Assembly: GCF_026914265.1 (NCBI RefSeq)
Contig: NC_069129.1
Location: 23,283,743-23,347,742, forward strand
From: Mya arenaria
Lineage: Eukaryota; Mollusca; Bivalvia; Myida; Myidae
Length of the DNA: 64,000 bases
Reading direction: 5' to 3'
Shown one piece after another: positions 22,061-61,197 of the stretch (the first letter of the stretch is position 1; each line of letters starts with the position of its first letter). Both the position numbers and the translations under genes were made by a program. Below the pieces are notes generated by a model that was not told where the DNA came from, ran no database searches, and worked only from the letters and a program-made list of their open reading frames with translations.

Positions 22061-22091
<31 letters not shown>

Positions 22092-25000
22092 AAATAAATA
22101 AAAAAAAAAATTCCTACCTACCCTCTTTTTTTTGGGAAGGAGACCGGAAACGAACCTATTTTTTTTTTTGGCCTAACCGTAGCCATAATCTCAAAGCCCT
22201 AGCCATAATCTCTTAGCCTTAGTCATTATCTCATAGCCTAAGTCATTATTTCTTAACCGTAGTCATAATCTCAGAGCCTTAGTCATAATCTCATAGCCTT
22301 AGCCATAATCTTATAGCCTTAGTCATTATCTCAGAGCCTAAGTCATTATCTCTTAACCGTAGTCATAATCTCATAGCCTTAGTCATAATCTCATAGCCTT
22401 AGTCATAATCTTATAGCCTAAGTCATTATCTCTTAACCTTAGCCATAATCTCAAAGCCCTAGCCATAATCTCGTAGCCTTAGTCATTATCTCATAGCCTA
22501 AGTCATTATCTCTTAACCTTAGTCATTATCTCATAGCCTAAGTCATTATCTCTTAACCGTAGTCATAATCTCATAGCCTAAGTCATTATCTCTTAACCTT
22601 AGTCATTATCTCATAGCCTAAGTCATTATCTCATAGCCTTAGCCATAATTTCAAAGCCCTAGCCATAATCTCATAGCCTTAGTCATTATCTCAGAGCCTA
22701 AGTCATTATCTCTTAACCGTAGTCATTATCTCATAATCTTAGTCATTATCTCATAACCTTAGTCATTATCTCATAGCCTAAGTCATTATCTCATAGCCTT
22801 AGCCATAATCTCAAAGCCCTAGCCATAATCTCGTAGCCTTAGTCATTATCTCATAGCGTAAGTCATTATCTCTTAACCGTAGTCATTATCTCATAGCCTA
22901 AGTCATTATCTCTTAACCTTAGTCATTATCTCATAGGGCTAGTCATTTAGGGCTTGGCTTTTCTCATATTCATGGCCTCATAGTCATTTATCATGGTCAT
23001 CCTGCGTGTTGAAAATCATGTATTTTGGGGGACACATTCTAACAAGATTCATATAAAAGGAAAACTAGCATTACTTTAAGATAATCATAGTTAAACAATT
23101 GATTGTAAAGTAACATTTGCACCACGCAAGGTACATGAATAAGTACTTTTTTCATTTCACCCACATTCAGCATTCGGCAGAATAAATACTAGTTAAATCT
23201 TATATCTTTATCAATGTTTTGCATGAGATGACAAGTCCATGTTCTGTGTACTGTGGTTATGAATATATTTTACTGTGAAAGGATTTAATTGTATGTAATG
23301 CTTCCAGGCCACGTGCCCGAGGAGGCAGCAGTTCCAGTAGTCGAAGTCGGTCTCGAAGTCGCTCATCATCATCCTCATCAGCGTCTAGTTTTAGCAGTAA
23401 ATCATCACGGTCATACAGGTAAGTGACAACTACTTAATGTTTTTATGTTTGGAAAAAAATGAATATCCTCCCAATTTTATCCAGGGTGGGGGGATGGGGG
23501 GTATGGATTTGTCTTGGCTTCTTTCTGTTCGTCTGACCAAACATTCTGTGTTACTTGTACAATCGATACCCATTGGCTCCTATATGCAAGGTTTGAATTT
23601 AGACTGGCATACTCGCGAAATGCGAGCGACATTGCAAATTGCGATTGACTTTTATTTAAGCTCGCAAAATTCTGCGAGTGGCTTTTTCTAGACCACAAAA
23701 TGTTAAATGGAAAGTAGAATAAACATGAACTTAACTTCGCTACGTAGTCGAGTTTAAACAGTAGTGATGTTCCGATGATCGATTATAATCGAAAATCAAT
23801 TGGTTGGGCCTGAAATCGGCGACAATCGATAGTATTTAGTTATAATCGACTATCGAAAAAAAAAAAAATAGTAAGTGTTCAGATGTTATCTTTAACAAAA
23901 TGGCTAATGAAAGCCACAATGAGCAAGTAAATGAACTATTTGTTATACAACAACACTTAATAACTTCCATCATAGACATAAGGTATATGCATATAATGAT
24001 TGAGAGTTTAATACTGTACATGAATAAAACTACAACTCAGGTACTATCTAGTATTTTAAAAACCGATTGTACTATCGATAATCGGTTACTTAAGTGGAAC
24101 CGATCATCGATAGTAAAATTGCAACCGATTCCCAACACTAGTAAACAGCCTGTAAGTGGCATGTTTACAATACCTGTATAAAGAAGAAAGTACGGAGTCA
24201 CGCTCTAGTAAGTTTTCAAAAATAGAACAAATATGGAAAAGACCTAGTTTTATCCCGAATCTTTCCCGAATGCTCCGAGGCGTGCATAATACAAAGTGAA
24301 TATAAATGACATAATCATCTAGCTCGATCATTGGCTAAATTTAGCGCTTTCGCGCACTATATGTAAACCCCATCAACCTTTGAATATATTTCCCCCCAAC
24401 TCTATGTGAATAGACTTTGTCGATCGATATACATGTGTATTTCATGGTCCAAAGCATCCACGCTGCATTTACTGTTGCTTTTATTTATTTTAAATTTATA
24501 ATGTTATTATTTTTAATACTTATATCTACTTAATGAAATCTGTAGCGTGCTTGCCGAATGGGTATTACCCGATGGCAAGGGTAAATATACAAAGTGAACA
24601 ATGTCAAATTATTGGACAGCTTTGTTATCAAAAAGCGGCCAGCATCCTGATGAGGCTTTCCGTACCCTGCCAAAAATAATAAGCCATTAACAAGTTCTAG
24701 TAGTCGAGTCACTCAAGATTGATAGTTTTTAATATTAATAATATGTCTTAGGTGTAAATTTCTACTTTAATTAGACAATATAAGGAAATAAAGCAAATAA
24801 TAAAATTGCAAGTTGATTTTTCATTTTGCGAGTTGCCTCAAAAGGCACTCGCAAAATTTTGCGAGGGCTCCTCAAAGTTAAATTCGAACCCTGTATATGT
24901 AAAGGATAAAAAAAAAATTACTCTATCAAAGCATTTCTGCTTGGCCCCTGAAATATTGAGCCAAAGGGTTTTGCCTGCACCTCACAAAGTATCAAACTAA

Positions 25001-27595
25001 ACTCATGACATTTCCTAGGAATACTGGTCAGTGCCGGAAGTTGTGCAGTTTTGTTTGACTAAGTAAATTAGATTTCCATGAATCTGATGTGTGCATAGGA
25101 ATTGAACAATGATTGTTTAAAATTTGCAATAAAAAAATATCATTTTATCCCTATGTCGAATGTCCCTTGGTGATCAATATATCTATAGACTTTCATAAGA
25201 AAGGAGATGGAATACATTTTTAGATCCATCTGACACACAAGTTTCATAGACCATTTCTTACTTAGTAAAGGTCCATAACTTTTGTCTAACTCTAAGTGAC
25301 ATATAAAACGAGCCCACAGGTGCTGACCAATCACCATATAAAGTTTATTGTGTCTATGAATTAAACTTTTGGAACTACATGCGACACAATCATTAAAGAC
25401 GATATTTACAGTCAAGGGCCATAACTCTTCTTAAACTAGTTGAGTACTTGGGGTTTTGGTTTGCCTTTTAATAAATAAAAAAAATACGTATATTACCTAA
25501 ACCTTTTTACAATTTTTGCATTTATTTGCGATATCTATCATTTTATGGCGGTCCTTTTTAAATTATAAGAAAACAATGAGTTTGTTTCAATGGCATAGAG
25601 GTGACATACATGTTATTTTTATATCCCGTTAAAAACACTTAGATATTTCAGTTGAACGACTTAGTAACTTATTGAAGAGATATAATTGGGCAATCAGAAT
25701 CATCCTATAATATATACATGTTGACCCATACCTTGGGCAATCAGAATCATCCTATAATATATACATGTTGACCCATACCTTGGGCAATCAGAATCATCCT
25801 ATAATATATACATGTTGACCCATACCTTGGGCAATCAGAATCATCCTATAATATATACATGTTGACCCATACCTTGGGCAATCAGAATCATCCTATAATA
25901 TATACATGTTGACCCATACCTTCTTTTAAATAATTATTTGGCATCATTTTGTTACAGTCGCTCTCGTAGTCGGTCCCGATCATCTTCATCCAGCTCCAGC
26001 GCAAGCAGTATATCGGGTCGTGGGCATAGAGGCATGGGGAAACCTCCACCACCTGGGCCACGGGGAAAAATGCCAGGTAGGTTAAAAAAGGGGGATAGGA
26101 TTGGGCTGGCTGATACATACTTATAAAATGATTTAGGGCAGGGCATGGGAGGGCAACTAAAATGTTTTAAGGTTGTTAATTCATGAAGAAAACCTTTGTG
26201 TAAATGTCAGCATCCTTATTATTGTGCATTTTTTTTTACATTATTCGTTACTTGGAAATTATTTAGTTAACAAGTCACATCACTCCAACTTAAATAGTTA
26301 ACAATTTATTTTCTTGGAACAAAGGTTAAATACAAGCATGAAAAATGCGTACTTATTTTGGCCTCCATTACAAGTGCCCTGTTTTTGTTTAGATATCAGA
26401 ACTTGCCAATTTATTCATATTGATTAATTTTTAGAGAAGGGTCGTGCCCCTCCTGCAGTGGCAGGGAGTCGAGGTGCCGCGGGGAGAATGAACATGAAGA
26501 TCGGAGAAACCGGTCGACCCTCCTCCATCACTCAGCCTAAACCAGTCAAAGACCCACTCAAGGCTATGGGACAGAAGTCGAATATCAAACTGACACTTAT
26601 CAAGGTAAGGAATGTAGTGTGTTTTCAGGCTAAGGTCTTGAAATAATGGGTCAGGCAATATGAACTTTTTCTCTGTGGTTTTACATAATGCTACTAAACT
26701 GAAAAGTGTACTATGAAATATCTTTGAACCCATAAAAAAAAATCATAATGATAGGTTTAACATGCTGAACACCTGTGATGGTAGTGAATGAGAAAATCTT
26801 GTCCCCTTTCAGGGAGATAGAGGGGCAGGTGGGGACATGATGACGAGGAAGAGACCCCCGGAGCCCCAAATGGATGCCCCACCAACTAAACGGGCTACAA
26901 TGGCCCCACCCTCGAGGCCAGGTAAGAATTGTTATGTTGTCAAGAATTCATTTTTCAATCTTAAGTTGTGTCATTTCAAAGACTGCCACAGCCCTCCTGA
27001 CTGAACTTTGTTTGTAAAACAGTTAGATAATGTCATAGTCTTGGTGTTGTCTGCAAGCATATATTTAACTATGCCAATATTTGATGTTTTTAGTTGAAGC
27101 AGTATTTTGTATCATACAAAGAAAAATCTGTTCGGCTGGTCAATGATTATTATTCAAATCATATTTTCAAGACGATGGTGACGTTCTTTTTATTTCCATT
27201 CAAAATATTTTTAATCTTGTGCTAAATTTTGTCTTAAATTATCATCTGGGTTGTTTAAATGGCTTCTTTTACCTTCAAAGAAAATCATATTTCAACTAGT
27301 ATGTAAAAATGTACATTGTAGTTTCATTTTAATTATGAAACAATGTAAATATTGCTCAATTTAAGGTGAGAGACCAGTCAAAAAGGTGGAAAGACCATCG
27401 CCACTTTCTCCTACCAAACCAGCAGCCAGACCAGCTAGTCAGGTTAAGCTCCCGCCTGCAAAAACTGCAGCTCCCGCACCAGCAGCCCCGGCAGCTGTGA
27501 AAAAGAAGAGTACAGTATCAAGGCGAGAAGAATTGCTCAAGCAGCTTAAAGCAGTAGAGGATGCTATTGCGAAAAAGAAGAAGAAAATGACTTGA
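1478..27595 (+). CDS. ZC3H18: ZC3H18 (NHN1) orthologue, 24 coding exons, 1,430 aa
   Basis: Nuclear CCCH zinc-finger protein. In vertebrates ZC3H18 bridges the cap-binding complex to the NEXT/exosome RNA-decay machinery. Coding exons: 1478-1584, 2260-3067, 5227-5690, 6012-6099, 6302-6751, 7317-7488, 7806-7891, 8457-8540, 9307-9461, 10140-10362, 10782-10855, 11100-11270, 12184-12270, 13078-13167, 13892-14014, 14825-14899, 15687-15911, 16367-16399, 19842-19880, 23308-23418, 25958-26076, 26435-26604, 26813-26921, 27366-27595. Summed length is 4,293 nt, an exact multiple of three, and every junction phase agrees. Order of parts: acidic Ser/Glu/Asp region (about 1-660), finger CRFFLRGHCTWGMNCRFLH (672-690, Cx7Cx5Cx3H), AWERGL block (about 743), DQYENFEVRW block (c10), RADEWMDPWRR block (c12), Ser/Arg-rich and Gly/Pro-rich exons, IKLTLIK block (c22) and the C-terminal helix SRREELLKQLKAVEDAIA. 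Block order matches my recollection of human ZC3H18 (about 950 aa); the clam-type protein is longer because of its acidic N-terminus. The least certain junction is the donor of the second coding exon. Confidence 0.93.
2260..3067 (+). CDS. ZC3H18: ZC3H18 coding exon 2, acidic low-complexity
   Basis: Encodes about 269 residues dominated by Ser, Asp, Glu and Asn, with near-repeats of SENVDS, GENVDS and DNNVDS. The acceptor follows CTTTTAG. The donor at 3068 (GCAAAG|GTGCTT) is the only good phase-0 choice that keeps the next exon open; a better-looking donor at 3156 would shift frame into a stop. The frame itself stays open to 3160, so a read-through isoform is possible. Confidence 0.75.
3068..4140. 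repeat. intronic dispersed repeat, with a 30-bp direct duplication
   Basis: Intron sequence that includes a tandem duplication of TCTGTTTTTAACGTG plus TTTTAGGGGGGAAAA at about 3417-3478. Phrases such as GGTCACTAGGTCAAATC near 4052 and the CTGTCCAAAACCATAT phrase at about 3209 recur in the repeat at 49080-50100, so both are copies of one dispersed bivalve-type family. No coding sequence was seen. Confidence 0.5.
4562..4895. mobile_element. Harbinger-like MITE, 334 bp
   Basis: Ends are inverted repeats opening GGCCTAAAAAAA, then TTTGGTT, and the element is flanked by a 3-bp duplication, TTG (4559-4561 and 4896-4898). The interior holds CCCGACCCTACC and A-rich runs. The same end design is seen in the 1.2-kb insertion at 20971-22174, so the two belong to one family. 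GG-starting ends and 3-bp targets are known traits of PIF/Harbinger elements; there is no transposase. Confidence 0.65.
5227..5690 (+). CDS. ZC3H18: ZC3H18 coding exon 3, acidic
   Basis: Begins phase 0 after TTTACTAAG and encodes a Glu/Asp/Ser-rich run with repeated VSDEE and EVSDEED motifs, typical casein kinase 2 contexts. It ends GACTTCAG|GTAAAC in phase 2. The highly charged composition matches the acidic half of ZC3H18. Confidence 0.85.
6012..6099 (+). CDS. ZC3H18: ZC3H18 coding exon 4
   Basis: Short exon after TTGCTTTCAG encoding SDKEKGRGVEDTDGEV and onward, ending SSSE before donor GTAGAC at 6100. Phase enters at 2 and leaves at 0, which fits both neighbours. Confidence 0.8.
6302..6751 (+). 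CDS. ZC3H18: ZC3H18 coding exon 5, acidic
   Basis: Phase-0 exon of 150 codons after CTCTTAATCAG, ending before GTATGT. It encodes ESDGEGMDRVSSDEDD, a basic KSKDKKDRRES patch and VELDYDDINEEGREK. That last block corresponds to the vertebrate ELDYDEE region just upstream of the zinc finger. Confidence 0.87.
7317..7488 (+). CDS. ZC3H18: ZC3H18 coding exon 6 with the CCCH zinc finger
   Basis: Encodes ECEEGEIREPG followed by CRFFLRGHCTWGMNCRFLH and PGVNDKG. The finger lies at 7413-7469 with zinc ligands in Cx7Cx5Cx3H spacing. It is nearly identical to the human ZC3H18 finger as I recall it, including the TWGMNC core and the HPGVNDKGNY tail that continues into the next exon. This is the diagnostic exon for the gene. 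Confidence 0.95.
7806..7891 (+). CDS. ZC3H18: ZC3H18 coding exon 7
   Basis: Completes the post-finger NYQLIERPGF motif and continues into a proline run (NRPPPPPQEE). Acceptor TATTACAG, donor GTACCT, phase 1 to 0. Confidence 0.9.
8457..8540 (+). CDS. ZC3H18: ZC3H18 coding exon 8, WERGL block
   Basis: Twenty-eight codons: a proline-rich start (RSPTPEPPPPPEPKEE) followed by TAWERGLRQAKE. The latter matches vertebrate SAWERGLRHAKE, a conserved helical segment downstream of the finger. Clean phase-0 exon. Confidence 0.92.
9307..9461 (+). CDS. ZC3H18: ZC3H18 coding exon 9, charged helix
   Basis: Encodes MRKKAMERREMETNFEHKK and ENPEYDKENK, continuing the conserved basic helix (vertebrate KKATIRKEQEPDFEEKR, EDEREFDKENE). 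Ends in phase 2 at GTAAGT. Confidence 0.9.
9620..9985. repeat. dispersed repeat in ZC3H18 intron 9
   Basis: Contains two degenerate copies of a unit with TTCAAATGAAAATTGGTAC and TTTAAATGAAACTTGGTA followed by GAGACA. The same unit appears at 28960-29080 in the 3' UTR (AATTATGAAACTTGGTACAC). It is a dispersed mollusc-type repeat with no coding capacity seen. Confidence 0.5.
10140..10362 (+). CDS. ZC3H18: ZC3H18 coding exon 10
   Basis: Encodes DDEYYDQTPMRLQQRQ and GPGDQYENFEVRWANRD, then a Pro/His/Tyr-rich tail. It corresponds to vertebrate PYYDYE and GGQYENFRVQY. Acceptor ATATTTCAG, donor GTAAGT. Confidence 0.9.
10782..10855 (+). CDS. ZC3H18: ZC3H18 coding exon 11
   Basis: Short Arg/Pro/Ser-rich exon (ARGKMQRRPPSPRRYSPSP) after TTTATATAG, ending CCAG|GTAAGA in phase 2. 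Confidence 0.85.
11100..11270 (+). CDS. ZC3H18: ZC3H18 coding exon 12, ADEW-DPWRR block
   Basis: Encodes KIAAAEHDARMLRDSRMRE and then RPVRADEWMDPWRRSTANK. The RADEW-DPWRRS motif is shared with vertebrate ZC3H18. Ends in phase 2 at GTATGT. Confidence 0.92.
11271..12183. other. ZC3H18 intron 12, nothing recognised
   Basis: AT-rich intron with short open frames on both strands that have no conserved character. A stretch around 11735-11870 (CAGGCACTGACTTGTCG, GGGGAAAGCCCCACAG) is locally GC-richer and may be an old dispersed repeat. Confidence 0.4.
12184..12270 (+). CDS. ZC3H18: ZC3H18 coding exon 13, Arg/Ser-rich
   Basis: Encodes GKEPEKRSQSRGRRRSRRS and YSFSSSYSS, entering and leaving in phase 2. 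It opens the Ser/Arg-rich segment that vertebrate ZC3H18 also has. Confidence 0.87.
12309..12671. mobile_element. hAT-like non-autonomous element, 363 bp
   Basis: Begins TGGTGATGTTCTGATTATC and ends GATTCTCAACACTA, with flanking 8-mers CGACACAC (12301-12308) and CCACACAC (12672-12679) that match at 7 of 8. The interior (GATTGGTTGGGCCTGAA, TATTGATAATCGG) closely resembles the element at 23762-24140. An 8-bp target duplication is the hAT hallmark. Confidence 0.65.
13078..13167 (+). CDS. ZC3H18: ZC3H18 coding exon 14, Ser/Arg-rich
   Basis: Thirty codons of RS-like sequence (STSRSRSRSSSFSSVSRSS). Acceptor TATTTTTCAG, donor GTTAGC, phase 2 in and out. Symmetric phases make it skippable without a frameshift. 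Confidence 0.87.
13411..13584. mobile_element. foldback repeat in intron 14
   Basis: Imperfect inverted ends: AGGGCCCAGGGGCTGTATT at 13411-13429 against the reverse complement of AATACTGGCCCAGGACCCT at 13564-13582. Interior is AT-rich. Consistent with an old MITE. Confidence 0.45.
13892..14014 (+). CDS. ZC3H18: ZC3H18 coding exon 15, Gly/Pro/Gln-rich
   Basis: Encodes RSRSPLKRPRGGPAGRGG and then MRQGQPPGQPMGQPPRRP ending DQQRG. Donor GTAAGT at 14015. The GQPPRRP-QQRG end recurs in the next coding exon, and decayed copies lie in the intron between, so exons 15 and 16 look like products of tandem exon duplication. Confidence 0.85.
14040..14780 (+). repeat. decayed tandem copies of ZC3H18 coding exon 15/16 in the intron
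   Basis: After exon 15 the intron contains several degenerating copies of the exon with its flanks. One, at 14041-14140, keeps ATGCGGCAAGGTCAGCCC and GGGACAGCCACCCAGAC. Others lie around 14150-14320, 14360-14455 and 14480-14585 (ACAACTTTCAGACAACC, AATAGAGATAGTAAGTGGG). A last piece at 14735-14780 resembles exon 16 (AAAGTCAGATCTTGGTCAGG). Frames are broken and splice sites mostly lost, so they are intronic pseudo-exons. Copy boundaries are approximate. Confidence 0.6.
14825..14899 (+). CDS. ZC3H18: ZC3H18 coding exon 16, Gly/Pro/Gln-rich
   Basis: Encodes PAMVKSNSGQAMGQPPRRP and SNQQRG. It resembles the second half of exon 15 and ends at the same point with the same donor context (AGAGAGG|GTAAGT). 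Phase 2 in and out. Confidence 0.83.
15180..15475. repeat. copy of the GAAGCAAAATGTTGCC repeat family, intron 16
   Basis: Holds AAATGAAACAAAGGGCAG, TTGGAAGCAAAATGTTGCC and TATACACACACTACTAATG. Related copies occur at 16930-17330 and, next to gene copy C, at 59648-60020. No coding potential. The extent of this copy is approximate. Confidence 0.5.
15687..15911 (+). CDS. ZC3H18: ZC3H18 coding exon 17, Gly/Pro-rich
   Basis: Encodes a collagen-like but irregular Gly/Pro/Arg run (PGAGRGQPGPQHRSPEKRPG, and later GVPGGPGRVQGPRRPGP). Acceptor ATTTTACAG, donor GTAAGT, phase 2 both sides. GC content jumps well above the flanking introns, as for other exons here. Confidence 0.85.
16367..16399 (+). CDS. 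ZC3H18: ZC3H18 coding exon 18, micro-exon
   Basis: Thirty-three nucleotides after TTTTTGCTTTCAG, before donor GTAAGT, encoding KKFQMEVKTRDK with its borrowed bases. Strong splice signals and matching phase support it despite its size. Symmetric phase makes it a possible cassette exon. Confidence 0.7.
16560..16742. repeat. (ATC)n microsatellite
   Basis: Trinucleotide tract of CATCAT and related units, nearly pure at about 16693-16739. On the minus strand it reads as a long Asp run, which is an artefact of the repeat. Confidence 0.9.
16916..17330. mobile_element. long-TIR foldback element in intron 18
   Basis: The left end (AAATTATGGCATAAATGC, GGAAGGCAACATTTTGC) is an imperfect reverse complement of the right end (GAAGCAAAGTATTTCC, TATTTATTATGTAATTATG) over about 65 bp. 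The interior segment CATCAGGCGGCAGTTTTG to CAATCAAACTCTAG recurs in reverse at 59648-59735. A non-autonomous DNA transposon family is likely. Confidence 0.55.
17324..19263. mobile_element. 1.9-kb non-autonomous element with tandem nuclear-receptor-type palindromes
   Basis: Ends are inverted repeats TTATGCCCCCC (17324-17334) and GGGGGGCATAA (19253-19263). The interior is about ten copies of a unit of about 146 bp carrying GGTCAAGGTCACAGTGACC and CATGGCCCTCAAACTTGAC. Perfect AGGTCAnnnTGACCT palindromes begin at 17530, 17686, 17832, 17978, 18124, 18270, 18416 and 18981; six of them are exactly 146 bp apart. No open frame. The element lies in ZC3H18 intron 18 and adjoins the foldback element before it. 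Confidence 0.75.
19264..19841. other. rest of ZC3H18 intron 18, nothing firm
   Basis: AT-rich. The phrase GCACCCTGTC occurs twice (19381-19390 and 19671-19680) with related text between, suggesting an old inverted or direct repeat, but I could not define it. No gene seen. Confidence 0.4.
19842..19880 (+). CDS. ZC3H18: ZC3H18 coding exon 19, micro-exon
   Basis: Thirty-nine nucleotides encoding LLPPSALDRQKPK with borrowed bases, after CTGTGTTGTAG and before GTGAGT. Phase 2 in and out. It lies between two repeat-filled introns, so transcript data would be the deciding evidence. Confidence 0.65.
20664..20746. mobile_element. foldback insertion in the 20-bp array
   Basis: Arms AATGACTGGGTATTAGACAC (left) and the reverse complement of GTGTATAATACCCAGTCATT (right) form a 20-bp stem with about 35 bp between. 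The sequence is unlike the array around it. Confidence 0.65.
20971..22174. mobile_element. Harbinger-like non-autonomous element, 1.2 kb, nested in the minisatellite
   Basis: Inverted ends of about 34 bp begin GGCCAAAAAAAAAAATAGGT and continue to TTTCCGGTC. A 3-bp duplication TAA flanks it, and removing the insert restores an ordinary array unit (TCTCTTAACCG). The interior has a CRE-like GTGACGTCAC near 21268, a poly-C tract of about 22 (22060-22081) and no long frame. It shares end design with the 334-bp element at 4562-4895. Confidence 0.75.
23308..23418 (+). CDS. ZC3H18: ZC3H18 coding exon 20, Ser/Arg-rich
   Basis: Encodes PRARGGSSSSSRSRSRSRS, then SSSSSASSFSSKSS. Acceptor TGCTTCCAG, donor GTAAGT, phase 2. 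A decayed copy of this exon sits at 45755-45860 near gene B. Confidence 0.87.
23762..24140. mobile_element. hAT-like non-autonomous element, 379 bp
   Basis: Starts TAGTGATGTTCCGATGATC and ends GATTCCCAACACTA. Flanking 8-mers TTAAACAG (23754-23761) and GTAAACAG (24141-24148) match at 7 of 8. Interior motifs GATTATAATCG, GGTTGGGCCTGAAATCGG and ATCGATAATCGG are shared with 12309-12671. No intact transposase frame. Confidence 0.7.
24149..25687. other. ZC3H18 intron 20, dispersed repeats only
   Basis: No gene seen. Phrases around 23620-23690 and 24800-24890 (TCGCAAAATTCTGCGAGTGG, CTCGCAAAATTTTGCGAGGG) form a distant inverted pair, suggesting a larger foldback element enclosing the hAT element. 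The segment 25150-25380 (GGTGATCAATATATCTAT, GACCAATCACCATATAAAG) has a decayed duplicate at 46130-46230. Confidence 0.45.
25688..25922. repeat. five identical 47-bp tandem repeats before exon 21
   Basis: Unit starts GGGCAATCAGAATCATCC and ends GTTGACCCATACCTT. Five copies appear identical, covering 235 bp, and end only 35 bp before the acceptor of coding exon 21. Lack of divergence implies very recent expansion or homogenisation. Confidence 0.95.
25958..26076 (+). CDS. ZC3H18: ZC3H18 coding exon 21
   Basis: Encodes RSRSRSRSSSSSSSASSIS, then GRGHRGMGKPPPPGPRGKMP. Acceptor TTTTGTTACAG, donor GTAGGT, leaving phase 1. Confidence 0.87.
26435..26604 (+). CDS. ZC3H18: ZC3H18 coding exon 22, IKLTL block
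   Basis: Encodes RGAAGRMNMKIGETGRPSS and ends QKSNIKLTLIK. The IKLTL motif matches vertebrate KEIKLTLLNK in the C-terminal third. Acceptor TTAATTTTTAG, donor GTAAGG. Confidence 0.9.
26813..26921 (+). CDS. ZC3H18: ZC3H18 coding exon 23
   Basis: Encodes GDRGAGGDMMTRKRPPEP and PPTKRATMAPPSRP, resembling vertebrate SRKRYEPSD and PPPAKRP. Acceptor CCCTTTCAG, donor GTAAGA. Confidence 0.88.
27366..27595 (+). CDS. ZC3H18: ZC3H18 last coding exon
   Basis: Encodes GERPVKKVERPSPLSPTK, an Ala/Pro-rich linker, and the C-terminal helix SRREELLKQLKAVEDAIA followed by Lys-rich KKKKKMT and TGA. The helix is almost identical to vertebrate ZC3H18. A decayed copy of the exon start lies at 47558-47628. Confidence 0.95.
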
Positions 27596-33904: not shown

Positions 33905-34814
33905 TAAACCCTTTTGCTTTCACGTAATTGAGTGCTTATGGTCAAGCATATATCGTTTGTTTTGTTTAAGAACTTGTAATTTGAATACAAATGAAATACT
34001 TATATACATTTTATTAGCCTGGTTTCAAAGTCCCCATTGGTGAACAAAAATGTCCGTAATGTAATATTAAAGAGAATTTTACAAAAACATAAACGAGTCC
34101 CTTTAAGAGCATTACAACATTCATGTATTTAATGACAGTTTTCATGTTTGGTGTTTATGGAAGATACAATGCAACTAAAATTTGTAATCCATTTATTAAT
34201 CTACATATGTACACCAAGAACGCAACAAGACAACTGTGTGCCTGGCAGTTTAACAGAATAATTAATCTCTATAGAAGCGGTAGTATTATATTACTTAAGC
34301 AAAACATTGAATATCAGAATAATGACTACTGGGTGTTTCTTGCGAATTGGCTTAATCCAAGTTTGTGATATAAGAAATTATAAAATTATAAGCTCAAATG
34401 ATATTTTGAAAGTAATTATTGAACCACAAAACATAAATATATATAGTTTATATATATTTGCATTAACACTGTTTAGATTCAAGTCAATAGACATTTTATA
34501 TTTTCAAGGTCAGGGTCGTTTAAAGGTCAAAAGGCTCGCTTTTGAGAAAGTTACTCTACTCATTTTATTTATTAACAAAACATAGACAAAACAAGAACAC
34601 CGAATTCGAAAACCATCACTCGTCTGATATCCCTAGACGATCAAATTAATATTGTACTCAAAACATTTCAGTGCATTTTCTCCATTTGCACTCGATACGT
34701 CATCCTTGCATTTTTTATAGTTTAACTAAACGTCTAGCCTCGATTTATGGCTCTGCGTTACAAATAGATTTTTGAAACATATATTTAATCAGCGTATTTT
34801 TCGTTTCATTTCAG

Positions 34815-37800
34815 TGTTTATTGGATTCCGACATAGTACCTTAAGATAACTGGTACAAGGGAAGTGATTTTGATAATTGGACAAGAAACGGTTCAAGCAA
34901 TGGAAGGACTGAAGAAATTGAAGGAAGACCTTGCTCGTTTTCCTTCTTTGTTTGACTGCGAAGGTGATATAGAAAAGGCTGTTCATAACAAAAAATCCAA
35001 CATTTTAAATGTAACTGAAAGACTCGAGCTCGAGTTAGCGGATGAAAATGACATGTATAGTAAAACTATATTTTGTCGCACTCATAATTTGCTGACATTT
35101 CTCTATGTTCTACTTGAGAACTATGAAAAGGCGATTGAACATCTCCGTGAGAGTGAAAAAGTGGAATTAAGCCTTATTACAATCACGAATCGAGCTTACA
35201 TGAATTTGAAACGTCAGGAAAACCTACAGTGCATTAAAGATGACATACGAAAACTAGAAAACTATAACGAAATGAAAGAAATGGTTCTGGTTGCAAATGC
35301 GGAAATTGGGCATGCATTAACAAGATTTGGAGTGCAACTCTACGAAAAAGCAGTAGCGATTTTTTCTAGAGTGTTAAAGGAAGCACAGACCTTGCAAACT
35401 GAACCCTGCTGTCTTAGATGGAAGGAAAACGTATGTGTCTGGACATTCAGCTTAGCGATGACAAAGAAAAGAATGGCACATCTGACAAATAACGTGGAAG
35501 CATGCAAGCTCTCTGTAGAGAACTATAAAGAAATTTTCAATCTTTACCAGAACATCGTAAATACAGATGGAGCCACAGAGAGTGCTTACCTTAAAACAAT
35601 TAAAGGTCGTGCTTTAGCAGAAATTGGACTTCTAGCGCATAGTGTCGAAAGAAATAAATCAGTTTTCAAAAGAGGACTAAAAGACTTTTTTCCAACAAAA
35701 AAGCTGTCGTCTGTTAATTTTATAAACAGGGCTGTTGATCTAAGCAAATTCGATGCGTTTGTCTTACAGAGATGCGGAAAATATTATCGATATATCAGTT
35801 CTCAACAAGTCGGATATTTGCATAAATCCATAGACCTCTTGCAACAAGCAGTTGACATTAAGCCGACAAGCTTTGCTTACCATCACCTAGCACTGTCATT
35901 AAAACGTCAGCTTGAGATGGAGAGTTATAGGCCTGGTTCAGCCATACGCACGAAAAATGATCATGTGAGGCAACTAGATTTTGAAACAACACATGGTCAA
36001 AGTCTAGAAACTGCACCTTCTTACCCACAAGGAACGTTCGGAAAGACTTATGATTCTGGTTTTGAGTCCAATTCTAGAGATAACCCGTTTTGCCATTTTA
36101 AAGAAAAAAATAGTGCACAACAAAGCGGTACGGAAACCACAAACTCAAATAAACAAGGTGCTTCGGCAATGAGTTATGAGTCTGGTTACTTTTCTCTGCC
36201 GTCCGAATTTAGAAATATGTCTTTAGAGTCACCTGGGTCCAATTCCAGAGTCAGTCCGCGTTGTTCGTTTGAAGAAAAAACGAATACGCCACAAAGCAGC
36301 ATAGGTCATCAAACACTAAGAAATGAAACATTTGATAGACATGATTCACAGAGTAGAATGGTTTTTGATGGTCTTCACGGTGAACACTTTAGCAGGTCGT
36401 CTACGCGGAAAAATTCAGCCCAGCACGGAATGCGAAAACAACAGTTTGGTAGATATCCTGATCATAATTATGAATATCAAAATTTGCCATCTGAAAAATA
36501 TGGCAGTTATGCTAAACGAAACAACTTCCGTTGTAATAGAGGGCAAATAAACCATAGTTACAACAGGAGTTTTTCTGAAGGCCAGCAATACGGTCGTGGA
36601 AGAGGTTTTCCCTGCAATTCGAGACAAGGATATTTTCGGGGTAGATCAATGGTTGAGAACTCTTCGTTCAACAAAACCTATTTTGGACCACCAAGAGAGA
36701 CAGTGCATATTATGCAAATGATAAAAAGTCCAAAAAAGCCAAAACATATAAACCCGGAGGTATTACCTGACCAGGCAGCCGAGATTCATATCCTATTGGA
36801 CAAAGCTATTGAAATGGACAATATGGCAGCGCTCTACGACAAAGGATTATACCATAGACAACTGGGTGACGCCAGCAAAGCTCTGGACGTATTTAAGAAA
36901 TTGTTTTGCGACCAACGATGTTCTTTGGTTCAGCTTTCAAATTCATACGAGCAAGCAGCACTTTGTATCGCCGAAATGTTAGAATCAGCAGATACGACAG
37001 ACACAGAAATGCTTAAGACAGATATGGTGCACTATTTGAAATACTGCGTAGAAATTTCGTGCACGATTGTTGCCAAAATCCCCTGGCTTAAAGACTGTTG
37101 GGTAGCGGCACCGACACTCGAACAATTCCTTGGAAGAAGGGGCAAAACAAAACAAACCCTAAAGGATTTATGTTTTCTTTACGAAAAAATGGAAAACTAC
37201 GATGGCGCTATTAAAATTTTGAATGAGTTGCGAACAAGTGTCCGAGATGAAGGCGAGGAAATTGAAGTAATCGATAAGTTGATTAAAAACTATTTCAAGA
37301 AAAAGGACTACAATAGTGCCGCGCTTGCGTTTGACATGATCATGTGTTTACCAGATGGACACAGCAAAGTGAATGGGAACTTGTACTTAAAGGTTCATAT
37401 CGAGGGTGCGTTTGATGCTTTGACAAAGGGTGAAACTGAAATGGCTCGGCTAAGATTGCGCAACGCTTTGGATTTCAACCTGCAATCAAAATCCGTTCAT
37501 GGGGAACAAAATGTGGAAGATGAATGCACAAGTGATGGGTATAACATTTTCGTACTCTGCGAAACGGAGAAAATAGAATTGGGACTATCTTTTATAGGGA
37601 TTTTAGACAGCATGGGTTTGTCTGTGACTTTGAATGCAATTGACGCTCTTCCGGGTAGGACAGAGTTGGAAGGTTTAGGTATTGTTATGAACTCTTCGAA
37701 GCATTACATAGCCTTGTTAAGTTCTGACCAACCTACTCCCGAATTAAAACATCGCTATAGCATGATGCGGGGAGTTCTCGAAGAAAAGGAATCTGGAAGC

Positions 37801-37992
37801 TTGATTGTAATTAAAACCAATCCTGATATTCGAGTTCCGACGATGTTCAAAGCATCGCCTCAACTTACGTTGAACTTTGAAGAACTTATGGAAGAACCTC
37901 AGAGTGTTAATATACAGGAAATACTGTCTAATGATCCCATGAGAGATACATTGAAAGACATTCTCATGACATTGTCGGGAAAACCATTATGA
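34815..37992 (+). CDS. gene A: IFIT-like TPR protein with C-terminal TIR-like domain (CDS 34900-37992, 1,030 aa)
   Basis: Coding exon opens at 34815 after CGTTTCATTTCAG; the first in-frame ATG is 34900, aligned with the start of gene B. Residues 1-340: helical TPR-type repeats resembling IFIT proteins (LLTFLYVLLENYEKAIEHL; KAVAIFSRVLKEAQ; QRCGKYYRYISSQQVGYLHK). Residues 345-600: disordered, Ser/Asn/Gln-rich, ending in an Arg/Tyr/Gly-rich stretch (YGRGRGF, GYFRGRS). Residues 605-860: second TPR-like region (AALYDKGLYHRQLGDASKAL; FLYEKMENYDGAIKILNEL). Residues 879-1000: TIR-like fold with box-1-like YNIFVLCETEK, box-2-like IDALPGR and SSKHYIALLSSDQPTP. Family knowledge: vertebrate IFITs bind non-self viral RNA; TIR domains signal or cleave NAD+. 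The Glu expected for NADase activity is not evident, so an adaptor role is more likely. No signal peptide or membrane segment, so cytosolic. Function is inferred. Single coding exon, noncoding exon 1 about 2 kb upstream. Confidence 0.87.
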
Positions 37993-41309: not shown

Positions 41310-43735
41310 GTATTTTTCGTTTCATTTCTGTGTATATTGGATTTCGAACTGTTGTCATAAGATATTTGGCATAAGTATACAACTTGTTTCGATACTTATT
41401 GAAGAGGACCTAATTCGTTAGCTCGACTATTTGAAGAATAAGGAGTGCTATACTACTCGCCCCGTAGTCGGCGTCTGTGTCGGCGTGTGGTTAAAGTTTT
41501 AGGGCAAGTTGGGATTTTCACTTATAACTTTAATACCCTTTATTCTATTCAATTCATACTTCAAACAATTGTTCAAGACCATCACATAATCAGGTTGCAT
41601 AGCTCCATATCATCCTAGATACAAAGTATAGCCTCTGATTGACTAAGGAACCTAGGTTGAAGTTTAAAGTTTTAGGCGGCAAGTTGGGATTTTCAATAAG
41701 AACTTCCATAGCCTTTTTTCATTTCACTTCGTACTTTAATCAATTGTACAGGACCATCACACAATAAGGTTGCATTACTCAATATCATCCTAAAAACACA
41801 GTATGGCCATTGAACGACGAAAATTTGGTTCAAGTTTTAGGGCTGCTTGGAGTTTTCACTCAAATTTCCAATAACGTGCATTCAATCGACTTTTTACTTC
41901 ACACAGTTGTTCGCGGTCAACACACATTACGGTTTCACAACTCCATATTATCCTTAATACAAATTATGGCTCTTGTTCGTTTTTTTATTTTTATTTTGTT
42001 TAATTCCTTCTTTTTAATTTGTTTTTAGCTTGACTATTCAAAGAAAAAAATGCTTTCATTTTGTTACCAATCTTGCATACTATTTAGTTTTGCATCACAT
42101 ACAAGGCAGCGTAAAAGTCACAATCACTGTCTGACAAATATATTGATGCTGTTCATTCAAGTGGCATAATACCTTACACTGATAAATGTACTTGACATAT
42201 ACGTATTACATCAATGATGCATTCATTTCTAAGACAAAGTGGCGTATAGTCAAGCGTGCTGTCCTACGGCAGCTCTTGTTTTCCTTCCTTGTTTGACCCA
42301 AGAGTAGATGTAGAAAAGATGTTTATAACAAAAAATAGAACTAATTTAAATTTAAAAAAATATACCTCGAGCTCGACTCCGAGGATGAAAATGAGATGCA
42401 CAGTCATACCATATTTTTCCGCACTCATTATTTGCTGTGTTTTTTATATTTTGTACTTGAGAATAATGAAAAAGCGGAGAGTGAACACGTGGAAACGGGC
42501 TTAATTACAGTCACTAATTGAGCTTATACGAATTTAAAACGTCAGGAAGATATCAAGAGCATTGTAAATGATATAAAAATATTAAAATATCTTAACAAAA
42601 ATTAAAGAATGGTTCTTGTTGCAAAAGCAAAAGCCGAAATCGAACATTTACATGATTTGGAATGCACTTGTATGCAAGGGTGATAAATATTTAAATAGCG
42701 ATAAACAAACAACGTTATACGTTTAAAAAGATTTGACGTATTTAAAAAATTGTTTTGAGACAAACATGTTCAATGATTCAGGTATCAAATGCTTATGAGC
42801 AGACAGCAGTTTATATTGACGAAATATGACAATCAACCGAGACAGTGACTCATGAAAATATAATGCAAGATTGTTGCCAATAACCTTTTGCTTAAAGACT
42901 GATGGAAAGCAGCGCCGATACTAGAACAATTTATCGAAAGAGAGGGCAAAATAGAACCAAATATGAAGAATTTATGTTTATTCTACGAAAAAATGAACAA
43001 CTACGATGGCGCTATTGAAATGTTAAAAGACTTGCAAACGAATTGAAAACTAATTAATGAAAGAAGACTACAGAAGTGCATTGCTTGCATTTGACATGAT
43101 CATGTGTTTACCATGGACACAACAAAGTTGATGAGAACTTGTACTTTATGGTTCACATGGAGGGTGCTTTTGATGCATTGACGAAAACAGGGTGAACATG
43201 AAATGGCTCGGCTTAGATTGCGCAACGCTTGGGATTTCAACCAGCAATCAAAATCAGTCTCTGGGGCACAAACTTTCAAAAATGTATGCACAAGTGATCG
43301 ATATAACGTTTTCGTACTCTGCGAAACGGAGAAAACATAATCGTAGGAATTAAACAGCATGGGGTTGTCTGTGTCCCTAAATGAATATGATGCTATTCCG
43401 GGCGGCATAGAGCTGGACAGTATAGTAATGGCAACTCTTTGAAGCTTTATGTTAAGTTCTAATCAACCTACTCCCGAATTTAAACATCAATATAGCTTCA
43501 TGCAGGGAATTCTTGAAGTAAAAGATTCTGGCAACATGATTGTGATTACAGCTGACTCTAAAATTTGTGTTCCGACGATGTTTTAGTCTAGGAAGTACCT
43601 CAACCTACGATGAACTTTGTAGAATTTCTGGGAAAACGTCAGAAAGGTTATATATACAGAACGATTTGTCTAATGTGCCAATGAGAAAGAAATTTAAAGA
43701 CATTCCCCAAAAGTTGTCGGGAAAAACATCATGAA
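41310..43735 (+). pseudogene. copy P: decayed IFIT/TIR paralogue
   Basis: The acceptor region equivalent to 34800-34840 is at 41310-41390, with the AG lost (TTTCATTTCTG). An insertion (about 41420-42250) precedes recognisable coding sequence: TTTTCCTTCCTTGTTTGACC, GAGCTCGACTCCGAGGATGA. The IFIT-like part then jumps at about 42730 straight into the second TPR region (GACGTATTTAAAAAATTGTT), so the central disordered segment is deleted. The TIR part is traceable at 43290-43620 (GATCGATATAACGTTTTCGT, CAACCTACTCCCGAATTTAAA). Many frameshifts and stops throughout. It is a host gene relic. Confidence 0.85.
41420..42250. repeat. dispersed repeat inserted in pseudogene P
   Basis: Two to three degenerate units with AAAGTTTTAGGGCAAGTTGG, GGCAAGTTGGGATTTTC and ACCATCACACAATAAGGTTGC, opening with ACTACTCGCCCCGTAGTCGG. 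It has no conserved frame and splits the 5' end of P. Confidence 0.5.
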
Positions 43736-52761: not shown

Positions 52762-52866
52762 TTCGACAACACCCTTGCCTTTTTTATAGTTTAGCTGAAC
52801 GTCTAGCCTCGATTTATGGCTCAGTTTTACACATGTTTTATCAGCGTATTTTTCGTTTCATTTAAG

Positions 52867-55800
52867 TGTTTATTGGATTCCGACACAATGCCATAAGATA
52901 ACTGGTAGGAGGGGAGTGATTTTGATAATTGGACAAGGAACGGTTTAAGAAATGGAAGTACTGAATAAATTGAAGGAGGACCTTGCTCGTTTTCCTTCAT
53001 TGTTTGACTGCGAAGGTGATATAGAAAAGGCTGTTCGTAACAAAAAATCCAACATTTTGAGTGTAACTGCAAGACTCGAGCTCGAGTTAACGGATGAAAA
53101 TGACATGTATAGTAAAACATTATTTTGTCGCACTCATAATTTGCTGACTTTTCTCTATGTTCTACTTGAGGACTATGAAAAAGCGACTGAACATCTTCGT
53201 GAGAGTGAAAAAGTAGAATTAAGCCTAATTGCAATCTCAAATCGAGCTTACATGAATTTAAAACGTCAGGAAAACATACTGAACATTAAAGCTGACATAC
53301 AATTACTAGAAGAAAAATACAAGATAAAAGAAATGGTTCTTGTTGCAAAGGCGGAAAAAGGACATGCATTCACAAGATTTGGAATGCAACTCTATGAAAA
53401 AGCAGTAGCATTTTTTTCCGAAGTGTTAAAGGAATCACAGCCTTTGCAAACTGAATCCAGCTGTCTTAGATGGAAGGAAAACATATGTGTTTGGTCATTC
53501 AGCTTAGCGATGACAAAGAAAAGAATGTCACATATGACAAATAACTTGGACGCATGCAAGCTTCCTGTAGAGAACTATAAAGAAATTTTCAAACTTTACC
53601 AGAACATCGTGAATACAGACGGAGCCGCAGAGAGTCCTAACCTAAAAACAGCTAAAGGGCGTGCTTTGGCAGAAATTGGACTTTTGGCGCAATGTGTCGA
53701 AAGAAATAAATCAGATTTCAAAAGAGGACTAAAGGATTTTTTTCCAGCAAAAAAGACATCTTCTGTTGATTTTATTGATAGAGCTGTTGCTCTGAGCAAA
53801 TCCGATGCTTTTGTTCTACAGAGATGCGGAAAATATTATCGATATATTAGTAATCAACAAGTCAGCTATTTGCGCATATCCATAGACCTTTTACAACGAG
53901 CAGTTGCAATAAAGCCAACAAGCTATGCTTGCCATCACTTAGCCTTGTCATTAATGCGTGACCTTGAGATGGAGAGTAACAGGCCTGGATCAGCAATATC
54001 CACGAAAAATGATCATGTGAGACGACTTGATTTTCATCCTACACATGGTCAAAGTTTAGGCACTCTGGTAACTGCACACTCTTACCCACAAGGAACGCCG
54101 GGAAAGACTTACGATTCTGGTCTGGGGATCTATTCTGGAGATAACCCGCGTTGCCCTTTTAAAGAGAAAATAATTGCACAACAAAGCAGTGCGGAAACTA
54201 CAAACTCTAATCAACAAGGAGCTTCGGGAATGAATAATGAGCCTGGATACTCTCTGCCGTCCGAATTTAGAAATATGTCTTTAGAATCACCTGGGTCAAA
54301 TTCCAGAGTTAGTCTGCGCTGTTCGTTTCAAGAGAGAACAAACAGGCCACAAAGCGGTATGGATCATCAAACACTGGAAAGTGAAACTTTTGATAGACAT
54401 GATTCTCAGAACAAAATGAAATATCGAGGAGTTCATGGTGAACACCTTAGCAGCTCATCTTTGCAGAAAAATTCAACCCAACACACGATTCGAAAAAAAC
54501 AGTTTGGCAGATATCCTGATCATAATTATGAATATCAAAATTTGCAATCTGAACAATATGGCAGATATGATACACGAAATAACTACCGTGGTTACAGAGG
54601 GCAAATATCCCAAAGATACAACAGGAGTTTTTCTGAGGGTCAGCAATACGATCGTGGAAGAGGTTTTCACTGCAATTCGAGACAAAGATATTTTCGGAGT
54701 AGATCAATGGTAGAGAAAACCTATTTGGAGCCACCAAGAGAGAAAGTGCGTATTATGCAAATGATAAAAAGCCCCCAAAAGCCTCCACATATAAACCCGG
54801 AGGTATCACCTGTCCAGGCAGCCGATATTCATATCCTATTGGACAAAGCTATTAAAATGGATAATGTGGCAGCGCTCTACGACAAAGGATTATACCATAG
54901 ACAACTGGGTGACGCCAGCAAAGCTCTGGATGCATTTAAGACCATGTTTAACAACAAACGATGTTCTTTGGTTCTGCTTTCAAATGCATACGAGCAAGCA
55001 GCACTTTGTATTGCCGAAAAATTAGAATCATCAGATACGACGGACACAGAATTGCGAAAAACTGATATGGTACAATATTTGAAAAGTTGCGTAGAAATAT
55101 CGTGCTATATTGTTGCCGAAAACTCTTTGCTGAAAGACTGCTGGAAAGCGGCGCCTACACTTGAACAATTTCTTAAAAGAGAGGGCAAAACAGAACCAAA
55201 TCTTAAGGAATTATGTTTCCTCTACGAAAAAATGAAAAACTACGATGGCGCTATTGAAATTTTAAAAGACTTGGAAACAATTGTCAGTGGTGAAGGTGAG
55301 AAAATTGACATTATCAACAAATTGATTAAAAACTACTTCATGAAAAAAGACTACAATAGTGCCGTGCTTGAATCTGTCATGATCATGCGTTTTCCAGATG
55401 GACACAATAAAGTGGATGAAAACTTGTACTTACAAGTTCACATTGAGGGTGCGTTTCATGCTTTGACAAAGGGTGAAACTGAAATGGCTCGGCTGAGATT
55501 GCGAAACGCTTTGGATTTCAACTTGCAATCATTATCAAACACTGGGGCACAAAATCTCGAAGACGAATGCACAAGTGATGAATATGACATTTTCGTACTT
55601 TGCGAAACGGAGGAAACAGAATCAAGACGATTTTTCATTGGCATTTTAAAAAGCATGGGGTTGTCTGTGACATTAAATGTAGATGACCTTCTTCCGGGCA
55701 GGAATGTTCACGCCGGTTTAACTCGTTTTATGAAATCTTCGAAGCATTACATAACCTTGTTGAGTTCTGACCAACCTACTCCCGAATTAAAACATCGCTA

Positions 55801-56035
55801 TAGCATGTTGCGGGGAGTTCTCGAAGAAAAGGAAACTGGAAGCTTGATTGTGATAACAACAAACTCTGATGTTCATGTTCCGACATCGTTCAAGACAGTG
55901 CCTCAACTTACGTTGAGCTTTGAAGAACTGTTTGAAGAAGGTGAGAGTATTAGTATACAAGACATATTGTCAAGTGTTCCAATTAGACAATGTTTTAAAG
56001 ACATTTTCATGAAGTTGTCGGAAAAACCATCATGA
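52867..56035 (+). CDS. gene B: IFIT-like TPR protein with C-terminal TIR-like domain (CDS 52952-56035, 1,027 aa)
   Basis: Coding exon starts after CGTTTCATTTAAG. ATG at 52952 is preceded in frame by TAA, fixing the start. Same architecture as A: TPR-like 1-340, disordered middle about 345-590 with Arg/Tyr/Gly-rich YDRGRGF, second TPR-like region about 600-860, TIR-like domain from about 875 (YDIFVLCETEE, DDLLPGR, SSKHYITLLSSDQPTP). The first 108 residues differ from A at 11 positions; the middle and the TIR domain are more diverged. A's DSGFES motif is replaced by DSGLGIYS. AATAAA at 56597-56602 is a possible polyadenylation signal. Intact across more than 3 kb, so it is under selection or recently duplicated. 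Confidence 0.87.
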
Positions 56036-60066: not shown

Positions 60067-61197
60067 GTGACGGTTCAATTAACACAATCAATGCAACCAT
60101 TGTTCTGTAAAGCAGCTCGCCCATTGACGTCACGGGAACTTTCAAATGCATACGAGCAAGCAGCACACTGTATCGCCGAAATAATAGAATCAACAGATAC
60201 GGCAGACACAGAAATGTTAAAAACAGATATGGTGCACTATTTGAAATGTTGCGTAGAAATTTCGTGCACGATTGTTGCCAAAATCCCCTGGCTTAAAGAC
60301 TGTTGGGTAGCGGCGCCGACACTCGCACAATTCCTTGAAAGAAGGGGCAAAACAAAACAAACCCTAAAGGATTTATGTTTTCTTTACGAAAGAATGAAAA
60401 ACTACGATGGCGCTATTAAAATTTTGAATGAGTTGCGAACAAGCGTCCGAGATGAAGGCGAGGAAATTGAAGTAATCGATAAATTGATTAAAAATCATTT
60501 CAAGAAAAAGGACTACAATAATGCTGCCCTTGCGTTTGACACAGTCATGTGTTTACCAGATGGACACAGCAAATTGAATGAGAACTTGTTCTTACAGGTT
60601 CACATCGAGGGTGCTTTTGATGCTTTGACAAAGAGTGAAAATGAAATAGCCCGGCTTAGATTGCGCAACGCTTTGGATTTCAACCTGCACTCAACAACAG
60701 TCACTGGGGCACAAAATGTCGAAGATGAATGCACAAGCGATGAGTATGACATTTCCGTACTCTGCGAAACGGAGAATATAGAATCGGGGGAATTCTTCAT
60801 TGGCATTTTAGACAGCATGAGTTTGTCTGTGACATTGAATGCAAATGACGTTATTCCTGGCATGACAGAACTGGAAGGTTTAGGTTTTGTTATGAACTCT
60901 TCGAAGCATTATATAGCATTGTTAAGTTCTGACCAACCTACTCCCGAATTAAAACATCGATATAGCATGATGCAGAAAGCTCTTCATGAGAAAAAATCTG
61001 GCGGACTGATTGTGATTACAACTGACCCTGATATTCGTGTTCCGACGATGTTCACATCAGTTCCTCAAGTTACACTGAACTTTGATGAACTGTTGGGGGA
61101 ACGTCAGTGCGAAAATATACAAGGCATTTTGTCAAATAAGACAATAAGAAAAACAACTAAAGACATTCTCATGAAATTGTCGGAAAAAATACCATAA
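60067..61197 (+). CDS. copy C: 5'-truncated IFIT/TIR paralogue, 376 aa
   Basis: Homology to A starts at about 60140 (CTTTCAAATGCATACGAGC), inside the second TPR-like region. The IFIT-like N-terminus, the disordered middle and the normal upstream module are absent. The open frame starts at an ATG in unrelated sequence (MTVQLTQSMQPLF) and runs to the usual C-terminus. It keeps the helical part (CFLYERMKNYDGAIKILNEL) and the TIR-like domain from about residue 225 (EYDISVLCETEN, NDVIPGM, SSKHYIALLSSDQPTP). It resembles A more than B. AATAAA at 61405-61410. The undamaged frame means a recent truncation or a retained short TIR protein; transcription is unproven. Confidence 0.6.
   Translation: MTVQLTQSMQPLFCKAARPLTSRELSNAYEQAAHCIAEIIESTDTADTEMLKTDMVHYLKCCVEISCTIVAKIPWLKDCWVAAPTLAQFLERRGKTKQTLKDLCFLYERMKNYDGAIKILNELRTSVRDEGEEIEVIDKLIKNHFKKKDYNNAALAFDTVMCLPDGHSKLNENLFLQVHIEGAFDALTKSENEIARLRLRNALDFNLHSTTVTGAQNVEDECTSDEYDISVLCETENIESGEFFIGILDSMSLSVTLNANDVIPGMTELEGLGFVMNSSKHYIALLSSDQPTPELKHRYSMMQKALHEKKSGGLIVITTDPDIRVPTMFTSVPQVTLNFDELLGERQCENIQGILSNKTIRKTTKDILMKLSEKIP

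Follow-up and report, generated by a model that had tools for sequence, protein, structure and literature searches.

IFITs are compact, stand-alone TPR proteins of about 480 residues, SARM1 carries ARM repeats and SAM domains, and LGN is a protein-peptide scaffold in cell polarity. In the present study, we analyzed a 64,000-nucleotide stretch of the genome of the bivalve Mya arenaria (hereafter the window; NC_069129.1, positions 23,283,743 to 23,347,742), in which two genes, A and B, encode proteins with a first block of repeats that is IFIT-like by sequence profile, a disordered linker, a second TPR block and a C-terminal domain modeled as a divergent TIR domain.

In the available excerpts of a 2013 survey, IFITs occur only in jawed vertebrates, where they arose alongside interferon, and invertebrate TPR candidates are judged not to be IFITs, with molluscs not among the species named (PMC3688568). 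A 'TIR-TPR' class is given in the Figure 1 legend of an immune survey of the Pacific oyster (PMC4346834), and a paper on the Aplysia immunome uses the TIR-TPR abbreviation (PMC9334734); in the excerpts of neither source is the class tied to IFIT. The oyster class resembles the present proteins in having TPRs and a TIR domain in one mollusc protein, a comparison made with the legend alone, which mentions neither IFIT similarity nor a linker nor how the parts are ordered. A sequence-only reading of the window had called the exact architecture unfamiliar; a TIR-plus-TPR class was already tabulated for oyster, though not in its link to IFIT. Among the matches listed from the open-licence literature on IFIT, TPR-TIR and molluscs, we found no report of an IFIT-like TPR block fused to a TIR domain. 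What is new here is a mollusc TPR-TIR protein with an IFIT-like first repeat block; the TPR-TIR combination was already known.

Protein layout and the IFIT-like first repeat block

The full-length model of A, built from an eight-row alignment (mean predicted local distance difference test score, pLDDT, 64.4; predicted template modeling score, pTM, 0.47), comprises helices at residues 2-342 (block 1) and 623-862 (block 2) and an α/β domain at residues 883-1026. Pfam places TPRs in both helical parts, which agrees with the earlier claim of further repeats after the linker. The protein shares with IFIT1 and IFIT5 (PDB 5w5h and 3zgq) a helical TPR superhelix, and its block 1 is collinear with parts of IFIT5 45-300. 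Considering that it has 1,030 residues with a long disordered insert, extra repeats and a C-terminal TIR domain, against IFIT chains of 465-482 residues, the protein is IFIT-like but not an IFIT.

Among named proteins, the nearest relatives belong to Dreissena polymorpha (LOC127870942 and LOC127870943); others come from Pinctada imbricata (two), Tegillarca granosa and the snail Physella acuta, and there are five further ones. A second homologue search, started from the eight-row alignment, returned five proteins and missed those of Dreissena, which indicates low recall. The layout of A and B recurs in Dreissena, Pinctada and Tegillarca, and the Physella relative is divergent. In all relatives except P0009, which ends early at 498 residues, block 2 is followed by a C-terminal segment; that of Physella was recognized as TIR by eye only.

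To place block 1, we searched the PDB with family profiles. The full-length profile matched IFIT5 (E-value 1.2e-13) and IFIT1 best. The profile of block 1 alone matched IFIT5 at 8.9e-19 with eight rows; a more varied version of 11 rows matched IFIT5 at 1.4e-21, IFIT1 at 5.5e-18, IFIT2 at 2.1e-11 and IFIT3 at 3.2e-9. The best natural non-IFIT protein among the PDB matches listed for the 11-row profile was OGT (1.2e-8), hardly behind IFIT3. Two collinear stretches, IFIT5 45-187 and 225-300, with E-values of their own of 4.6e-9 and 1.3e-7, make up the match to IFIT5, which ends at a PTS-F-x-HH stretch common to block 1 and IFIT5, the HH motif standing before the GLCY of IFIT. When single sequences were used, IFIT5 came first for Tegillarca P0013 (1.2e-6, with the designed TPR 7obi at 2.8e-6) and third for Pinctada P0006 (0.0037), and gene A gave no match at all. 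By sequence profile, block 1 is IFIT-like, as the sequence-only reading had supposed: of the natural generic TPR proteins among the PDB matches listed, none comes as close to it as IFIT5 and IFIT1 do, with designed TPRs scoring above or among the IFITs. A block of generic TPRs only was considered as well, and is disfavored by the gap between IFIT5 and OGT.

Several results speak against a kinship with IFITs and would suit another explanation, in which the protein is a TPR-TIR adaptor or scaffold. Its TPR blocks would bind protein partners, as those of LGN, TOM70 and HOP do, and link receptors to TIR signaling while sensing nothing, the IFIT likeness having arisen by convergence. In the structural comparison of the full model (best 50 VIA-align rows), the TPR domain of LGN/GPSM2 (PDB 4wng) leads with a Z of 21.1, above IFIT, although only about 295 residues are aligned at 13% identity and LGN has no TIR domain; IFIT5 3-481 was aligned over model residues 1-800 with a root-mean-square deviation of 17.5 Å. 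The designed 16-repeat TPR 9qhb tops both block 1 profile searches, with a score that is the sum of many repeats having E-values of about 0.3 to 3 each, and 7obi matches block 1 strongly too (1.1e-17; best single stretch 7.4e-6) and lies near the IFITs in the full-length search (2.4e-12). Between the eight-row and the 11-row profiles, IFIT5 gained 9 bits, 9qhb 12.5 and OGT 3.3, and since the latter two gained as well, nothing can be concluded from this unspecific rise of IFIT5. Used as a single sequence, relative P0008 prefers generic TPRs, with no IFIT among its 28 matches. The block 2 profile matches designed TPRs, MamA and LGN, and the best 60 of its 76 rows contain no IFIT. On the other side, the profile of block 1 sets IFIT5, matched over two collinear stretches, apart from OGT, and block 2, with no IFIT in those 60 rows, acts as an internal control. 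As both the gap and the control stand, we kept our estimate of the IFIT reading, and the adaptor or scaffold explanation seems to us possible but somewhat short of probable.

In the available excerpts of two sources, R38, K151 and R187 of IFIT1 surround the triphosphate (PMC13197388), and the IFIT1 contacts in structure 5udi are tabulated (PMC8143464). We mapped K151, R187 and further IFIT1 positions by hand through the match of the 11-row block 1 profile to IFIT and read them from the 11-sequence alignment. The position of R187 is Arg in all 11 sequences, one of just six invariant columns, and that of K151 is Arg or Lys in 10, with Thr in a paralogue on contig C4. The column aligned with R262 is likewise Arg or Lys in 10 of the 11, and the position of W147 is Tyr or Trp in nine and His in A and B. 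Weighing against an RNA pocket, G154 is not conserved in block 1, R255 aligns with Gln in A, and consensus TPRs often carry Lys or Arg at these pocket positions, basic positions being common in TPR helix A. These residues would suit a basic groove, and they are no proof of RNA binding.

In the case of the linker (residues 345-612 of A), almost no structure is predicted (pLDDT about 24), in line with the disordered middle described before. Its description as Arg/Tyr/Gly-rich was only roughly right: over 265 residues counted, Ser is highest at 14.0%, with Arg 8.7, Gly 8.7, Asn 7.9, Gln 6.8 and Tyr 4.9%. Arginine-glycine (RG) dipeptides number 4 in A, 9 in Dreissena P0003, 12 in P0012, 9 in Tegillarca P0013 and 2 in Pinctada P0006, whereas P0011, P0014 and the C4 paralogue P0007 lack them; B has 5 in the 320 residues after block 1, where the linker end is not delimited. 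P0008 has a linker of 9 residues only. Because RG count and length vary in this way among the relatives, the linker appears to be an accessory part. More relatives have in common a short S-P motif that directly precedes block 2, and it is kept in most of them although the linker ahead of it is not. It reads SPKK in A (within IKSPKK, residues 607-612), P0003 to P0006, P0013 and P0014, SPQK in B, SPEK in P0012, SPKE in P0011 and SPLH in P0008, and it is gone in P0007. The motif is possibly a phosphorylation or docking site.

The C-terminal TIR domain

Since the best 50 VIA-align rows for the full model were filled by the repeats and held no TIR domain, the C-terminal domain was folded alone. Its model shows the elements E-H-E-H-E-H-E-(H)-E-H, which is TIR topology, and its best 50 VIA-align rows are all TIR-type, supporting the flavodoxin-like TIR fold put forward earlier. 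Among the best 50 Foldseek rows, some lower ones are not TIR domains (nucleoside deoxyribosyltransferases, DNPH1 and a TRAPP subunit). The C-terminal motifs that had been named in TIR order occur in both A and B. In the box 2/BB loop, D-x-x-P-G, the Gly is present in 12 of 12 sequences and the Asp and Pro in 11, P0014 being without both. Recognition by the Pfam TIR and TIR_2 models failed at the curated cut-off, which is a detection criterion and not a biological one; the best whole-protein score was that of P0003 with TIR_2 (18.1 bits against 28). Weak Pfam matches were seen among the 12 TIR segments, five to TIR_2 and four to TIR. Taken all together, the C-terminal domain is, by its model, a divergent TIR domain. 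It shares the TIR fold and the PG of the BB loop with the TIR domains of TLR, TRR-2, TRAM and the IL-1R family, and differs from them in its divergence, in scoring under the Pfam cut-offs and in being joined to TPRs; neither an LRR nor an Ig family is among those that Pfam lists.

The repeat scaffold followed by a C-terminal TIR domain also recalls SARM1 and TIR-1 (PDB 7anw and 8p2m), and the best structural matches include TIR structures of SARM1 and SPARTA. A SARM1-like effector might therefore be considered, in which a TIR NAD hydrolase is restrained by the TPR scaffold and clustering leads to NAD loss and cell death. In NAD-hydrolase TIRs such as SARM1 and AbTIR, the catalytic Glu of helix C lies in a Trp-Cys context, while the PG of the BB loop is typical of signaling TIRs. 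By eye and in an uncertain alignment, a Glu is located near the helix C position in A, B, copy C (see below) and P0006 but is not kept in the two Dreissena sequences, the Trp is absent in 12 of 12, and the Trp-Cys motif occurs nowhere among them. By this reading, the catalytic Glu and Trp motif of SARM1 do not appear to be conserved here, and the BB loop has the PG of signaling TIRs. Furthermore, Pfam finds TPRs but no SAM or ARM family in A or B, unlike SARM1. The NAD hydrolase is disfavored on these grounds, and we consider it improbable.

Gene copies, divergence and surroundings

The two long single-exon frames reported by the sequence-only reading stand as ATG frames that are 76-77% identical to each other. 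Together with copy C and a decayed copy, all on the + strand, they form a tandem array (Table 1), as the earlier claim of a tandem family had it. Copy C is 79% identical to A across A residues 666-1028, with everything before about residue 666 missing, and the decayed copy matches both ends of A in pieces (34-60% identity). We searched the genome for family members (1.216 Gb, 18 contigs) and found two further paralogues on contig C4, on the minus strand about 35 kb apart, with 23-28% identity and the order of parts unchanged; neither these paralogues of like layout nor copy C and the decayed copy had been mentioned before. Searches of the genome with a Tegillarca or a Dreissena relative as query revealed no further loci, and one of the two overlooked the decayed copy, so the counts are lower bounds. 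Between the C4 paralogues, no closed open reading frame of at least 200 residues was found in the 30 kb examined of about 35 kb.

Table 1. Features of the window, with the parts of gene A.
Feature	Position	Strand	Description
Gene A	34900..37992	+	complete single-exon coding frame, ATG to stop, 1,030 residues
A block 1	34900..35925	+	residues 1-342; IFIT-like helical repeats by profile; ends in HHLALSL motif
A linker	35932..36735	+	residues 345-612; disordered, RG motifs; ends in IKSPKK (36718-36735)
A block 2	36766..37485	+	residues 623-862; second TPR block (Pfam and model)
A TIR domain	37531..37989	+	about residues 878-1030; from model and structural matches
Decayed copy	about 42303..43607 (contig 23326045-23327349)	+	several in-frame stops
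Gene B	52952..56035	+	complete single-exon coding frame, 1,027 residues; layout as A
Copy C	about 60094..61197	+	open, 5'-truncated; end of block 2 and TIR domain
Acidic serine-rich protein	about 2294-11484		open frames; apparent CCCH zinc finger at 7317-7604 (by eye)
Tandem arrays	17415-19069 and 19913-22947		large; about 146-bp units, plus two arrays of a 20-bp unit
47-bp array	25686-25922		five perfect copies
66-bp minisatellite	58622-59575		14.5 copies, 90% matches; upstream of copy C

Between A and B, synonymous divergence (dS) is 0.29 and nonsynonymous divergence (dN) 0.13, giving a dN/dS of 0.45 over 1,024 codons; by region, the ratio is 0.38 for block 1, 0.50 for the linker, 0.41 for block 2 and 0.56 for the TIR domain. 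The TIR ratio is also the highest for B and C (0.53), while for A and C it is lower (0.31) than that of block 2 (0.46). Across regions of the three pairs, dN/dS ranges from 0.31 to 0.56, and A and B are under purifying but relaxed selection. The description of the family as fast-evolving is fair but mild, the relaxation being only moderate. The synonymous divergence of copy C (60148-61194) from A is 0.15 in block 2 and 0.48 in the TIR domain, and from B 0.43 and 0.44. Copy C is a mosaic, for which a conversion event involving A and C within block 2 would be a simple explanation.

The decayed and truncated copies within the array, along with dN/dS up to 0.56, could indicate recently duplicated relics of little function. 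A and B nevertheless keep full frames at their dS and dN/dS, Dreissena, Pinctada and Tegillarca have retained the layout, and we think relics very improbable. Chance frames or pseudogenes were likewise rejected for A and B, considering their open frames, the relatives across species and a dN/dS that shows purifying selection.

To the eye, A and B are alike over about 160 bp ahead of their start codons (34715-34900 and 52780-52952). In A, a good 3' splice-site sequence (TTTCATTTCAG) lies some 85 bp upstream of the ATG, where B has TTTAAG. These features suggest a 5' non-coding exon. One C4 paralogue (L010 2442-4877, minus strand) is open into block 1 but has no ATG where one would be expected; its start is probably in another exon, unlike those of A and B, which lie within the main exon. 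Matches to the interferon-stimulated response element (ISRE; GAAANNGAAA) were not enriched, with 6 found against 7.1 expected, and the nearest one beyond the genes lies some 1.3 kb ahead of B, which speaks against an ISRE promoter of the IFIT type.

Elsewhere in the window, the acidic serine-rich protein with its apparent CCCH finger resembles ZC3H18, and Pfam gave nothing for three other frames. The 66-bp minisatellite produces long open frames on both strands. The 47-bp array is probably a very recent expansion, since its five copies are perfect. No RNA family was found in the window at the gathering threshold.

Proposed mechanism and meaning for the family

The observation behind the sequence-only reading is confirmed; its architecture was read largely right, and its interpretation is partly supported. 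Neither of the two outcomes that it had named as refuting came about, since the C-terminus is predicted to fold as a TIR domain and block 1 lies nearer to IFIT5 and IFIT1 than to the natural generic TPR proteins listed. The most likely explanation seems to be a cytosolic immune sensor-adaptor, in which an IFIT-like groove would bind a ligand, perhaps RNA 5' ends, and the TIR domain would signal by assembly. The products of A and B would belong to a mollusc family of TPR-TIR proteins located in the cytosol. Their block 1 would form an IFIT-like superhelix that probably shares its ancestry with the first half of vertebrate IFITs. The basic inner groove of block 1 would bind the ligand, for which the 5' end of a non-self RNA is the likeliest candidate. 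In those bivalves that possess it, the disordered RG-motif linker may contribute clustering or a weak affinity for RNA, and block 2 would complete the scaffold. Ligand-driven clustering would then gather the C-terminal TIR domains, which may recruit MyD88-like or Toll TIR partners via a BB loop of the TLR/adaptor type rather than act as NAD hydrolases. Taken as a whole, this account of a mollusc cytosolic TPR-TIR family with putative RNA sensing via block 1 and putative TIR signaling strikes us as evenly poised between acceptance and doubt.

A stronger form, 'IFIT-TIR', is a mollusc RNA sensor in a single protein, in which a groove derived from IFIT would read the 5' ends of non-self RNA and the TIR domain would signal directly; we regard it as tentative and rather unlikely. 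If it were true, the IFIT lineage would be older than jawed vertebrates and interferon, and vertebrate IFITs would be the ancestral scaffold stripped of its signaling domain. An IFIT-like block fused to a TIR domain in bivalves, with a divergent gastropod relative, would push the origin of IFITs back and offer a possible molluscan route from RNA recognition to TIR signaling. It raises the concrete biochemical question of whether block 1 binds 5'-triphosphate or cap0 RNA, and the family could structurally define part of the unexplained expansions of TIR proteins in bivalves.
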